Assembly: GCF_016950255.1 (NCBI RefSeq)
Contig: NZ_JACGFN010000001.1
Coordinates: 2,046,001 to 2,110,000 of the forward strand
Origin: Pectobacterium brasiliense
GTDB lineage: Bacteria; Pseudomonadota; Gammaproteobacteria; Enterobacterales; Enterobacteriaceae
DNA length: 64,000 bases
Direction of reading: 5' to 3'
A program made the translations under genes and the position numbers. The notes below the pieces were generated by a model that was given only the letters and a program-made list of their open reading frames with translations, was not told where the DNA came from and ran no database searches. How positions within the stretch are numbered: the stretch's first letter is position 1; each line of letters begins with the position of its first letter. Positions 24,479-28,280 of the stretch are shown in pieces.

Positions 24479-24554
24479 GCCCGGATAGCTCAGTCGGTAG
24501 AGCAGAGGATTGAAAATCCTCGTGTCCTTGGTTCGATTCCGAGTCCGGGCACCA
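24479..24554 (+). tRNA. pheV: tRNA-Phe (GAA)
   Basis: 76-base tRNA beginning GCCCGGATAGCTCAG and ending with encoded CCA. The anticodon loop TTGAAAA gives anticodon GAA between five-base paired arms. The T-loop is GGTTCGATTCC. The sequence is nearly identical to E. coli pheU/pheV, and speC lies nearby as it does for pheV. tRNA-Phe is a known integration hot spot in Pectobacterium and E. coli. Confidence 0.98.
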
Positions 24555-24563
24555 CTAATTCTT

Positions 24564-24589
24564 AACCCTCGCCTTTGGCGGGGGTTTTT
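24564..24589 (+). terminator. Terminator after tRNA-Phe
   Basis: Stem AACCCTCGCC / GGCGGGGGTT with a TTT loop followed by TTTTT, starting 10 bases after the tRNA 3' end. Confidence 0.88.
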
Positions 24590-24700
24590 CGTTTCTGGCG
24601 CGTGGACTCTTCATCGAACACCATTCGATTATTCGCCGCAAGCGGCTCACCCTTTCAGGGCCAGCGCGACAAGCGCGCTGTTCAACGCCTCCCGCGTTTG

Positions 24701-24723
24701 TCCGAGTCCGAGTACCACTAATT
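24701..24723 (+). repeat. Degenerate direct repeat of the tRNA-Phe 3' end (att-like)
   Basis: The 23 bases here match 24538-24560 (the tRNA 3' end plus flanking CTAATT) at 21 of 23 positions; the differences are G to A and C to T in the acceptor region. A duplicated tRNA 3' end is the usual footprint of site-specific integration. No integrase gene is present in the window. Confidence 0.7.
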
Positions 24724-24729
24724 TAAAGA

Positions 24730-24753
24730 AACCAGCCTAACGGCTGGTTTTTT
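24730..24753 (+). terminator. Second terminator downstream of tRNA-Phe
   Basis: Perfect stem AACCAGCC / GGCTGGTT with TAAC loop and a T-run. It follows the att-like repeat and may be the original tRNA terminator displaced by insertion. Confidence 0.8.
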
Positions 24754-24982
24754 GCTTTTGGGGATTGGGTTCTGAACTGGGTCTCGTTCTCTACGAGTGC
24801 TATCTATCCCGCCTCCCCTTCCCCATGATTCGAGCCCATCCCCTGATAGCGTGACGGCCAGATCTCCTCAGGCCGCTTTCCCAATGCGCAGGCAATTAAT
24901 CTCTCACCTTTCGGCCAGTGTCTCGTTAAAGCATTAGCGAGTGTTGAAGACGCTAATCCAGATGCTCTTGATACCGCGGCCA
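24736..24982. repeat. Left-end sequences repeated at the right end of the island
   Basis: Two segments, 24736-24761 (terminator and following bases) and 24953-24982 (inside the Ner-like gene), recur in the same order at 28151-28175 and 28190-28219. The second pair agrees at 25 of 30 positions. Confidence 0.6.
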
Positions 24983-25046
24983 ACGTTGTTCCTTTCTTCC
25001 TTAAACCAGCAATAATGTCTGCCGGATGCCAATTGTGCTTATCCAT
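24804..25046 (-). CDS. Ner/Nlp-family DNA-binding protein
   Basis: 80-residue helix-turn-helix protein like phage Mu Ner and E. coli Nlp/SfsB: HNWHPADIIAGLRKKGTTLA, then SRASGLASSTLANALTRHWP and a conserved GKRPEEIWPSRY. Such proteins repress early phage transcription or act as accessory regulators. GAGAGG precedes the ATG. It is divergent from the first XRE gene, and the palindrome at 25080-25098 lies between them. Probably a phage or integrative-element relic. Confidence 0.88.
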   Translation of the reverse strand: MDKHNWHPADIIAGLRKKGTTLAAVSRASGLASSTLANALTRHWPKGERLIACALGKRPEEIWPSRYQGMGSNHGEGEAG

Positions 25047-25079
25047 TTATCGACCTCTCCCTGTGATGAATTGCTCCAA

Positions 25080-25098
25080 TTATCCCATTTTGGGATAA
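25080..25098. promoter_or_regulatory. Palindromic operator, copy 1
   Basis: TTATCCCATTTTGGGATAA, an inverted repeat with 7-base arms and a 5-base centre. It lies between the divergent Ner-like and first XRE genes. An almost identical copy precedes the second XRE gene, so it is probably the operator of these regulators. Confidence 0.7.
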
Positions 25099-25149
25099 AA
25101 AAGGAAATGGTTGATATTCGATTTTAGGATATCTATCAAGGTCACCAAA

Positions 25150-25404
25150 ATGGCATCGATTTATTCAAATGAATATCAATCAGTTATAAAAATACTGCGA
25201 GAGGCCAGAATCGAAAAAGGCATGACCCAAGAAAATTTAGCGAACGCTTTAGGTCGACCTCAGTCTTTTGTAGCCAAAATCGAGAATGGGGAACGTAGGC
25301 TGGATGTTGTTGAATTTGTCCACATCGCTCACCTGCTATCTGTAGACGCTTCCACTGTTTTAGAAAAAATAGCGCATAAAATACAGAAAGATAGCATTAA
25401 GTAA
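25150..25404 (+). CDS. XRE-family regulator, paralogue 1
   Basis: 84-residue Cro/C1-type DNA-binding protein. Its five-helix domain covers nearly the whole chain, with the recognition region TQENLANALGRPQSFVAKIENGERRLDVVEF. ATG 25150 follows AAGG; an upstream in-frame ATG at 25111 would add 13 unrelated residues. It resembles the next gene over its whole length (about two thirds identical by eye), showing a tandem duplication. The palindrome about 50 bases upstream is probably its own operator. Confidence 0.88.
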   Translation: MASIYSNEYQSVIKILREARIEKGMTQENLANALGRPQSFVAKIENGERRLDVVEFVHIAHLLSVDASTVLEKIAHKIQKDSIK

Positions 25405-25422
25405 TCAATACAAAAAAATCAC

Positions 25423-25441
25423 TTATCCCGTTTTGGGATAA
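25423..25441. promoter_or_regulatory. Palindromic operator, copy 2
   Basis: TTATCCCGTTTTGGGATAA, differing from the copy at 25080 by one central base. It sits between the two XRE paralogues, about 50 bases before the second start codon, the same spacing as copy 1. Confidence 0.7.
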
Positions 25442-25489
25442 AGCAGTGAGCGACTGATATTTGATCCCAAATTTTATGGGGTTGAATCG

Positions 25490-25738
25490 ATGGCTTCTGT
25501 TTACTCTGATGAATATCAAATCGTTATCAAGGCATTACGTGAAGCACGCATTGCCAAAGGGATCACACAGGTAAACCTGGCTCTAGCGCTGGATCGTCCT
25601 CAATCGTTTATCGCTAAGGTTGAGAACGGGGAAAGAAGGTTAGATATCGTAGAATTTATCCATATCGCCCGTTTACTTTCTCTAGACCCTGCCAGCATTA
25701 TTGCTAAGATCCCTGCAAAACATAAAGCGCTTGGTTAA
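25490..25738 (+). CDS. XRE-family regulator, paralogue 2
   Basis: 82-residue Cro/C1-type protein, a diverged duplicate of the upstream gene. Both share the pattern MAS-YS-EYQ at the start, REARI-KG-TQ and RPQSF-AK-ENGERRLD. Differences cluster in the C-terminal tail. Fourteen bases separate its stop from the ccdA start, so it may form an operon with ccdA. Confidence 0.88.
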   Translation: MASVYSDEYQIVIKALREARIAKGITQVNLALALDRPQSFIAKVENGERRLDIVEFIHIARLLSLDPASIIAKIPAKHKALG

Positions 25739-25752
25739 AGAGGAACACGGCC

Positions 25753-25980
25753 ATGAAACGCCGGATTAGCATTGCCGTGGACAAAGATGGCTATCAGATT
25801 CTGAGTGCTGCCGGAGTTAATATTTCCGAGCTGGTGAATGACGCCCTTGGCAAAGAAGCCCTCCGCATAAAGACTGAAGCGTGGAAGAAGGAAAACCGTG
25901 AAGGGATGGAAAACGCCGCCCGATTTATCGCAAAGAATGGTTCTTTTGCGGATGAAAACAGGAACCTGGTGATCGTGTAA
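25753..25980 (+). CDS. ccdA: CcdA antitoxin
   Basis: 75-residue antitoxin of the CcdAB family. The N-terminal ribbon-helix-helix domain (MKRRISIAVDKDGYQILSAAGVNISELV) binds the operator. The C-terminal toxin-binding segment keeps WKKENREGMENAARFIAKNGSFADENR. The normal ending ENRDW or similar is replaced by ENRNLVIV, apparently by a base insertion that extends the frame. AGAGGA lies at a good distance before ATG. The partner toxin gene directly downstream is inactivated. Confidence 0.92.
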   Translation: MKRRISIAVDKDGYQILSAAGVNISELVNDALGKEALRIKTEAWKKENREGMENAARFIAKNGSFADENRNLVIV

Positions 25981-26239
25981 ACGCTCCAGTCATTACAAAA
26001 CGTTTGTCGATATGTAAAGCGATATTGTCGAGACACCAAAGCGGCGCATGGTCATCCCACTTATTGGATCGCATTACCTGTCTGAGAAAATGAATAAGAT
26101 GTGGTTCCCTCTGATCCGCATTGACAACGACCATTATCGGCTGATGACGACTGAGGTGATTGGTGAGGCTATTGCGGATCTTGGCGAGTATGCGAATGAG
26201 ATCAAGGATGCTATTAATCTTATGTTTTGGGGGATTTGA
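25979..26239 (+). pseudogene. ccdB: Inactivated CcdB gyrase-poison toxin gene
   Basis: CcdB poisons DNA gyrase. In-frame remains read RSSHYKTFVDM, a TAA stop at 26015-26017, then [15 protein letters not shown] and the family C-terminus [13 protein letters not shown]. Against chromosomal CcdB proteins there are three lesions: loss of the start and about the first nine codons, a CAA-to-TAA nonsense change in FVD(V/M)QSDI, and loss of about seven residues after RLMTTE. The residual ATG at 26048 could give a 63-residue fragment that keeps the C-terminal gyrase-binding residues but lacks the N-terminal strands. Confidence 0.9.
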
Positions 26240-26525
26240 GAGGTGTTCTTGAGCCTTACGCATAGTGAGGGACATAATCAGTACTAAAAATGAATAGTTC
26301 GATTCGCTATGATGCTTACATAATGTTTAATTGTATTGAATGCCACGAAAATCATTGCTATCGTAATTGTATCAATTACGCATTTCCTTGGGGAAGGTCA
26401 AAATCTACATCTCACCTAGCGAAACATTAACTGTTAGCTTGTAGAGTAGGTGCATATTCATTTCACTGATAGAGCAGCAAAAAGATACTCAACGCTTACC
26501 ATATACAACAAAAAGAGATATAAAA

Positions 26526-27317
26526 ATGTGGAACAAAATAAAAATATATTACTACATAATCATGTCATCTTTGCGGGCTAAGACAATATATCCTGATGAT
26601 ATCGATATTGATATGAAAAATTTTTTTGACAAACCAAGTAAATTAAAGATCGCGATAATTGATGATAATGATTTTCCTTGGGTCCAAACTTTAGAGAGCA
26701 AGGGTCACACAGTTAAAATATTTAAAGACTATCATAAAACAAACACAAAAATTTCACAAAAGAAATTGATAGCATACCAATTTAAAACTTTCGATTTAAT
26801 ATTTTGCGATATCGAAGGTGTTGGAACTTTGGCATATCCAGGTTTGGACGGGATCGGTGTAATACAAGACCTACGCGAATTAAATCCCTTACATGTGGTA
26901 GTGGCCTTCACAGGAAGCCCCGCTAGACTTTTAGATCCTAAGACAGGGAAACATTTTACTTCTCTAGATGCAGTTTTTCAGCGAGATTGGGGCGTTGATG
27001 ATTTTTTGCTTAACTTCAGTAATTTGACTAAAATATTTATAGCACCAAAACAAAGGTGGAAATTTATTAGAAGTCGTTTAGTTCATTTAGATCTAAGCGA
27101 ATCAAAAATCACAAAAGTACAAAAAGCATTTACACAAAATGTATTATTATTGAAATATTTAGGAGAAAGCACAGATATTTCAAAAAATGAGATACAAGAA
27201 ATAATTTTAAAGTCTGAAAAGAATGTAGACATTAAGGGTGTTATTGAAGTTGCAGCTATTTCCACTAAAGCAATAAATATAGCAAGTTCATTGTTTATTT
27301 TTAATTCATTCAAATAA
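26526..27317 (+). CDS. Receiver-domain-like protein of an AT-rich two-gene unit
   Basis: 263-residue protein not recognised beyond its fold. Residues 40-165 look like a response-regulator receiver domain: acidic pair D46/D47 in KIAIIDDNDF, likely phosphoacceptor D95 in DLIFCDIEG, T129 in VVVAFTGS, and R153 where lysine is usual. The C-terminal 95 residues are helical and contain no helix-turn-helix I can identify, so output may be protein-protein contact or an unknown activity. Strongly AT-rich codon use contrasts with its neighbours. The next gene, 18 bases on, encodes a histidine-kinase-like ATPase. Confidence 0.75.
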   Translation: MWNKIKIYYYIIMSSLRAKTIYPDDIDIDMKNFFDKPSKLKIAIIDDNDFPWVQTLESKGHTVKIFKDYHKTNTKISQKKLIAYQFKTFDLIFCDIEGVGTLAYPGLDGIGVIQDLRELNPLHVVVAFTGSPARLLDPKTGKHFTSLDAVFQRDWGVDDFLLNFSNLTKIFIAPKQRWKFIRSRLVHLDLSESKITKVQKAFTQNVLLLKYLGESTDISKNEIQEIILKSEKNVDIKGVIEVAAISTKAINIASSLFIFNSFK

Positions 27318-27335
27318 CCTAACGAAGGTATGCAT

Positions 27336-28073
27336 ATGTCTAATTCAGTTGAATGGGCACAGATATTCGAAAGATATAGACATCTCTCAAGAGATTTTCA
27401 ACAAAAATTCCAATCTATCCAAGGGAGATTGTCTATTGAAAAATATGAAAACAGTGACTCTGTAATAAAAAAAGTAAGAACGGAACTTGAAGAACTTGAC
27501 GAGGTTTTTCAAGATTTCAACTCATGGCTTTATATCAGCTTACTTGAAAATCTAGAAGAAGCAAAAAACAATAATGCCGTCGGACTTTTAGAAATACCAT
27601 CAAAAATACAAAGAATAAAAATAAAAATGAAGAATAAACTTCAGGACAAAAGAATAAAAATAGAGACTGACTTTGATGAAAAAATAGCCATATCCACTTA
27701 TATTACATTCTTTGAGCAATTAATAAACCTTATTTTCCAAAATGCTTTTAAATACTCCCCAAGTGGCTCATCAATAAATATTTCAACAACTAACAAAAGT
27801 GACTATATTTTACTAGAAATTTCTTCACCTGGCCCTGTAGTTGAAAACTCTGAAATTCATAGCCTCACAACAAAGGGATTCAGAGCTAATGCAGCCATTA
27901 ATTCGGATATTCCAGGAGAGGGATATGGATTATATAACTGCAAACGCATATCGGACCTTCTAAATATAAATATAGATTTTAAATCCCAATCAACAAAAAG
28001 GTATACTTTTAATGAAATTGGATATTGTAACTTTACAGTTACTCTAAAAATCCCCTATGAAATAAATCCATAA
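27336..28073 (+). CDS. GHKL (histidine-kinase-like) ATPase of the two-gene unit
   Basis: 245-residue protein with a charged, coiled-coil-like N-terminal half (about 1-110) and a C-terminal HATPase domain. The N-box is QLINLIFQNAFKYSPSG (N136) and the G2 lid GEGYGLYNCKRI (194-205). The G1 box reads EISSPGPVV, lacking the usual aspartate. No membrane segment, sensor domain or clear phosphorylatable H-box is seen. ATG 27336 is favoured because GAAGG is 7 bases upstream; ATG 27330 is too close to it. AT-rich like its partner. Possibly a soluble kinase or an allosteric ATP switch. Confidence 0.75.
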   Translation: MSNSVEWAQIFERYRHLSRDFQQKFQSIQGRLSIEKYENSDSVIKKVRTELEELDEVFQDFNSWLYISLLENLEEAKNNNAVGLLEIPSKIQRIKIKMKNKLQDKRIKIETDFDEKIAISTYITFFEQLINLIFQNAFKYSPSGSSINISTTNKSDYILLEISSPGPVVENSEIHSLTTKGFRANAAINSDIPGEGYGLYNCKRISDLLNINIDFKSQSTKRYTFNEIGYCNFTVTLKIPYEINP

Positions 28074-28150
28074 AAATCTATTTAAAATACATTCATCTAT
28101 GCAATATTTTACACCAAAGGCAGACCGATGGGTTTGCCTCAAATAATCAA

Positions 28151-28219
28151 CTTAGCGGCTGATTTTTGCTTTTGGCCACCCCTGAAAAACTAATCCAGAC
28201 GCTTTTGATACCACCGACA
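28151..28219 (+). repeat. Degenerate copy of the island's left end
   Basis: 28151-28175 repeats the terminator-adjacent sequence at 24736-24761. 28190-28219 repeats part of the Ner-like gene (24953-24982). Read on the minus strand the second part gives VVSKASGLV, compared with AVSRASGLA in the intact gene. The rest of the Ner gene is absent. It marks a probable right border of the tRNA-Phe island. Confidence 0.6.
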
Positions 28220-28280
28220 GCAACCACGATCGCTACGATGGCACGTTCGCTTCCAATACGATCCCTAACTCTGTTCCCCA

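Follow-up and report, generated by a model that had tools for sequence, protein, structure and literature searches.

The window, by which we mean the whole analysed stretch of 64,000 nucleotides, carries two adjacent genes, A and B, in an island behind a tRNA-Phe gene (Table 1). The reading frames, the tRNA-Phe island, the AT-richness (GC content 30.8% for the pair vs 50.9% for the window, in a genome of 4.88 Mb) and the 18-base spacing, as given in an earlier note made from the sequence alone, were all borne out, with the gap counted from the second ATG of B at 27336. From the first ATG the gap is 12 bases, and the relatives of B start at the position of the second. The regulator gene that opens the shared block is presumably Nlp-like, and of the two ccd genes ccdA looks intact and ccdB looks N-terminally short. 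Besides the pair, no third gene was found between ccdB and the AraC-type gene with which, followed by an MFS-type gene (both named by eye), the backbone restarts. A 30-nt repeat (83%) was observed at 24953-24982, inside the regulator gene, and at 28190-28219, just behind the pair near the backbone; it is perhaps the remnant of an earlier insertion.

Table 1. Features of the island and of the gene pair, in window coordinates.
Feature	Position	Strand	Description	Basis
tRNA-Phe (gaa)	24479..24554	+	integration site; 3' end repeated at 24701-24723 (91%)	ARAGORN
Winged-HTH regulator HTH_35	24804..25046	-	first gene of shared block	Pfam 7.1e-32
Two related XRE/HipB-like HTH genes	25111..25738	+	25111-25404 and 25490-25738	ORF calls, domain searches
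ccdA antitoxin	25753..25980	+		Pfam 6e-24; NCBIfam above cut-off
ccdB reading frame	26048..26239	+		matches only family positions 33-101
Gene A	26526..27317	+	263 aa; N-terminal helix 2-17, receiver domain about 38-175, helical C-terminal region 174-233, low-confidence hydrophobic tail 242-259	AlphaFold2, structure matches, hydrophobicity, PDC-M43A match
Gene B	27336..28073	+	245 aa; DHp hairpin followed by CA domain; lacks the N-terminal region seen in relatives; frame also open from 27330 (247 aa)	ORF call, fold matches, PDC-M43B match
D46-D47 of A	26661..26666	+	acidic pocket of receiver	conserved 128/128 among the matches listed
D95 of A	26808..26810	+	usual phospho-acceptor position	conserved 128/128 among the matches listed
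R153 of A	26982..26984	+	at conserved receiver lysine position	R in 10/10 subfamily, K in 118/118 others among the matches listed
E14 of B (numbered from 27330)	27369..27371	+	at H-box histidine position	register test; invariant 11/11 (window and 10 close relatives)
S166 of B (numbered from 27330)	27825..27827	+	at G1-box aspartate position	family alignment and PDB alignment

For both proteins relatives of 63-78% identity exist, the named ones being from Pseudomonas and Stutzerimonas. Among genome contigs the sole match was P. brasiliense CFBP8736 (L010), with a protein A that is 99% identical, and the DNA of the window and of the P. brasiliense copy is about 96% identical over 5.8 kb. The dN/dS values against that copy were 0.19 and 0.08 for the two genes, calculated from only 11 nucleotide differences. 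Judged from the sequences, the relatives of A and B and the few amino-acid changes in this copy indicate more than chance.

Structure matches gave protein A a true receiver fold, so the receiver part of the earlier description 'receiver-like' stands and the 'like' does not. The assignment rests on these separate matches and not on the Foldseek search with A alone, in which one PDB match was below 0.001, to full-length FixJ with poor global agreement. The residues D46, D47, D95 and T129 were confirmed by sequence check, as was the replacement of the lysine by R153. We compared 128 A sequences, made up of the window, eight loci and 119 of the 120 matches listed of 161, with P0001, a near-twin of the window, excluded; D46, D47 and D95 were kept in all of them, and T129 was kept in 123 and replaced by S in the other 5. 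Only the lysine is therefore missing from the canonical receiver set D, D, D, T/S, K. The earlier note held that ordinary two-component homologues with known targets would speak against its reading; this was pursued in part, and the five A proteins scanned had no output domain above the Pfam cut-off, only sub-threshold matches such as HHH_6 (0.067) in the Phaeobacter A, while the fold search barely covered the C-terminal part. The hydrophobicity of the tail is borderline (1.57), and the tail has low confidence in the AlphaFold2 model. The most hydrophobic stretch of A is at the C-terminus in 13 of 17; in L070, of the same subfamily, the tail scores 0.89 and is not the maximum of that protein, and it is weak in two relatives from Bacteroidota (0.44 and 0.59).

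Protein B resembles histidine-kinase cores over its full length. The label 'soluble GHKL ATPase' undersold the protein, since the kinase-core match spans the DHp hairpin too. The best Foldseek match was HK853 (6rfv_B, E 2.8e-11, 245 columns, TMt 0.78, rmsd 3.6), with DivL (4q20, rank 20) and RetS also among the matches, and a family profile search placed SrrB first (5.3e-23) and HK853 at 2.8e-21. A sub-threshold SPOB_a match (1.7e-4) agrees with the DHp reading. In the read-through model the pLDDT was about 55-89 in the CA half and only about 43-48 in the two DHp helices. Of the canonical folds, the receiver in A and the DHp and CA domains in B are present, the DHp helices at low confidence. 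Structure prediction, as proposed in the earlier note, gave the folds of both proteins; the model of the two together showed no interface that could be relied on (mean pLDDT 50.9) and served only for the kinase-core fold. The N-box and the G2 box are present as had been described, and the G1 box reads SSPG with S166 at the aspartate position, a register confirmed by the PDB alignment (ISDQG vs ISSTG). The G1-box aspartate, which contacts adenine in ordinary kinases, is replaced family-wide (Ser in 14 and Asn in 1 of 15).

The absence of a clear H-box, which had also been reported, was only partly right. As B is a DHp and CA kinase core by fold match, the H-box position exists; the histidine that a canonical kinase has there is absent, and Glu14 takes its place. 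In eight distant B proteins an H[DE] leads into a similar helix, and the best of 54 registers set Glu14 on their H-box histidine, with the histidine column left out of the score. In a trimmed alignment the position was Glu in 7/7 subfamily members and His in 7/8 distant proteins, the eighth (L002, from the Phaeobacter plasmid pair, which keeps His and Lys) having gaps at this column and its H-box being read directly. The B protein of L070, which is 35% identical to that of the window (86/244), has its own Glu at the best register. His18 was considered as a shifted phospho-acceptor and rejected: it is invariant in the same 11 sequences as Glu14, but its register scored far below that of Glu14 (-18.25 vs -0.5), and L070 has Ser at that position. 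MAFFT alignments conflict at the H-box, one setting the His of L003 on His18 and another the distant His on Glu14, and the register therefore rests on the sliding test and on hydrophobic spacing read by eye. The window's B lacks the N-terminal region that its longer relatives have. In five of these relatives (L003, L005, L036, L037 and L071) we observed recurring Cys/His residues and, ahead of the kinase core, a C-x-[YH]-G motif, features that are absent from the window's subfamily; from their sequence, these regions may possibly be a metal or redox sensor.

The window's subfamily forms one clade (support 0.999). The losses of His and Lys could thus be a single event, and since both fall on one branch, their coupling also rests on one event. 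Genes that are not neighbours in other genomes would have counted against the earlier reading; A and B were adjacent in 10/10 family loci and in the window. Since the profiles had been built with most of these loci, independent tests of the pairing come from L070 and L071 only. The family pairs were found in 10 of 40 loci (kinase match E 2.8e-47 or better); in the other 30 a kinase match was either lacking or no better than 9.8e-18, with L051 ambiguous. Additionally, DxGxG was absent from the family B in 10/10, and of 12 other loci whose kinase match was weaker, 11 had it. By protein searches, four of eight other A relatives were read as sharing a contig with a B relative, as the longest contigs given for the two had the same length (45673, 1811, 133615 and 38301).

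The pair is rare and its distribution patchy. It was present in 2/25 genomes of the genus and 2/198 of the family, both counts including the window's own and the second of the family being a weak partial match, and in 2/398 genomes of the genus taken to be Pseudomonas, where one (L071) was of the His/Lys kind. Profile A3 gave matches in 6 of 369 genomes of the class, the window's own included; L004 and L005 were family pairs, and L006-L008 were not. Profile A7 matched 91 of 398 genomes of the phylum, and of 29 loci examined three (L035-L037) were family pairs and 26 were not, most of them resembling ordinary receivers. No relatives were found in E. coli genomes by blastn. For A, one distant relative each was found on a plasmid and on a phage-labelled contig, and the same two came up with another family member as query; B matched four plasmid records, and two scans of viral contigs gave no confirmed relative.

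We compared the slot region in 10 of the 24 other genomes of the genus. The AraC-type and MFS-type backbone also flanks the slot in the P. brasiliense copy (L031), L026, L028 and L033. In the P. brasiliense copy only a 60-base piece of tRNA-Phe is present, at the far end of the island, which contains an integrase and a relaxase; masked bases lie within this island at L031 13907-14188. In 5/10 slots the ccdAB block is followed by other cargo, namely a TIR protein (L024), a partial DUF4062 domain (L026), what we take to be an insecticidal-protein-like gene (L027), SIR2 (L028), and CD-NTase with Cap15, i.e. CBASS (L032). Three of the ten had no match to the shared block, namely L025 and L030 (both with an integrase by Pfam) and L029 (integrase-like ORF by eye), and the slot of L033 had no ccdAB and an ORF without matches. 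Near the tRNA-Phe of L030 (13079-15538) lies a NERD-helicase protein that matches the RT-associated NERD-helicase, AbiO and Nhi models. With PADLOC, three of the five cargos matched well (best 2.9e-19, 5.2e-29 and 9.8e-168) vs none of ten backbone proteins; four of seven slot ORFs scanned gave no match, nor did the cargo of L027. Elsewhere, L070 adjoins a Phd/ParE pair near a tRNA-Arg, and beyond these two tRNA slots the neighbourhoods inspected looked mostly housekeeping by eye. The tRNA-Phe site (window 24479-28280; also L024, L026, L027, L028, L030 and L032) is an exchange slot of the genus, in which the cargo after a shared regulator-ccdAB block varies between genomes. The available part of the literature on Pectobacterium tRNA-Phe slots contained no publication that we recognised as describing it.

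Both proteins match models of PDC-M43, which likewise consists of an adjacent receiver-like A and a HATPase-bearing B. The match of A to PDC-M43A (4.9e-6, residues 36-126) was the only one in the genome, with none in 14 control genomes. The match of B to PDC-M43B (7.6e-14, residues 104-242) was the best of seven places in the genome; this model is unspecific and had matches in 11/14 control genomes. The A of L070 matched weakly (5.4e-5), and the B of L037 (2.2e-11) more poorly than that of the window. The window pair differs from PDC-M43 in that B has about 245 aa vs 344-361 in the models, its N-terminal region being missing and its best match starting at profile position 205, in the replacement of His and Lys, and in matches that cover part of each model. 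PDC-x systems are given in the accessible part of the source as unpublished candidates of Payne et al. 2021 (PMC11811056). In the available part of the literature we found no publication naming PDC-M43, and the parts of the literature on defence two-component pairs that were available contained nothing recognised as this pair. The claim of an undescribed system was hence only half right, as the pair is already a candidate in PADLOC-DB; it is apparently a derived, phosphotransfer-dead variant of this family and not an unknown system. The slot supports a defence role of the pair, and slot position together with PDC-M43 homology lends partial support to the earlier interpretation as a signalling or defence unit.

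Known systems share some of these features. DivL of Caulobacter, a pseudo-histidine kinase, also has a DHp and CA core without the phospho-acceptor His; according to the part of the source available, it has Tyr for His with the other boxes retained, and recognises DivK in its phosphorylated form, so that a His-less kinase core can read a receiver (PMC4211667). The window's B likewise keeps the core fold with the His replaced, but it has Glu, the G1 Asp is lost as well, and the receiver lysine is lost in A; moreover, DivL belongs to the cell-cycle machinery, whereas the pair lies in a variable slot. HK853 of Thermotoga maritima, solved in complex with the receiver RR468, is a working kinase with the phospho-acceptor H260, where B has Glu. 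In Detocs a two-component pathway is reused for defence too, but that system comprises three genes, DtcA, DtcB and DtcC, in the part of the description available (PMC11728103), vs two here, and neither a buffer protein nor an enzymatic effector domain above cut-off was seen in the pair.

We tentatively read the pair as a PDC-M43 module of two proteins that has moved horizontally and acts against phages (or mobile elements) by non-canonical hold-and-release signalling, and consider the chance of this somewhat short of even. Alternatively, A could be toxic, at the membrane or otherwise, and B a stable neutraliser on the receiver face, serving the maintenance of the element with defence at most a by-product. 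The presence of two genes only, with none more before the backbone, their short gap, the toxin-antitoxin genes adjoining the pair in two separate places and the mostly C-terminal hydrophobic maximum of A would all suit such an arrangement. We nevertheless think it unlikely, as B retains the kinase-core fold, the N-box and the G2 box, and the distant relatives keep a His, a Lys and an N-terminal region that a plain antitoxin would not need. Equally unlikely is an ordinary trimmed two-component regulator with a regulatory output, in which A receives its phosphate from a different kinase or from small phosphodonors and B acts as phosphatase or scaffold. The absence from A of a DNA-binding or enzymatic output domain above the Pfam cut-off (its C-terminal part being barely covered by the fold search), the Arg at the lysine position across the whole subfamily and the patchy spread in the genus argue against it, whereas the intact receiver fold and the invariant aspartates, with T or S at position 129, are what it would predict. 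If the pair were an orphan remnant that has drifted since its N-terminal region was lost, with substitutions that reflect decay, the joint absence of that region, His and Lys, and of the G1 Asp, the last being family-wide, would be accounted for. This reading is very improbable, as the changed residues are invariant across relatives of 63-78% identity and the dN/dS values given above, from their few differences, are low.

For the hold-and-release reading we propose the following mechanism. Most of the family would work as an ordinary phospho-switch, in which B has the His and a perhaps sensory N-terminal region and A the Asp and the Lys. In the window's subfamily the N-terminal region, His and Lys are all missing while the three aspartates of A are invariant, which suggests non-canonical signalling. 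With neither phospho-acceptor, G1 Asp nor receiver Lys left, yet an invariant acidic pocket, control may be by binding, perhaps with Glu14 facing this pocket. B, a kinase core that is dimeric by analogy, would dock A via its DHp helix as RR468 docks on HK853, and we infer that it holds A inactive. Release would occur when infection alters the nucleotide state of B, the nucleotide sitting in the remaining N/G2 pocket, or when a phage product binds B or A. The earlier idea that ATP binding by B gates A is possible from the sequence, and the family-wide lack of the G1 Asp bears on it. With only two genes in the unit, one of A and B must be the effector, and the C-terminal region of A is the candidate; our guess is that released A acts at the membrane through this helical region and the hydrophobic tail. 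The complete picture of a pseudo-two-component immune switch, in which a sensorless, His-less core presents Glu14 constitutively to an Arg-for-Lys receiver and a membrane-acting A is released through nucleotide state or a phage factor instead of phosphotransfer, is rather doubtful.

If true, a two-component fold would have been turned into an immune gate without phosphate transfer, with the receiver as its own effector, and a function would be assigned to the candidate defence family PDC-M43. The family offers a natural comparison, between members with the His, the Lys and the N-terminal region and members without them, both of which are kept as a gene pair.
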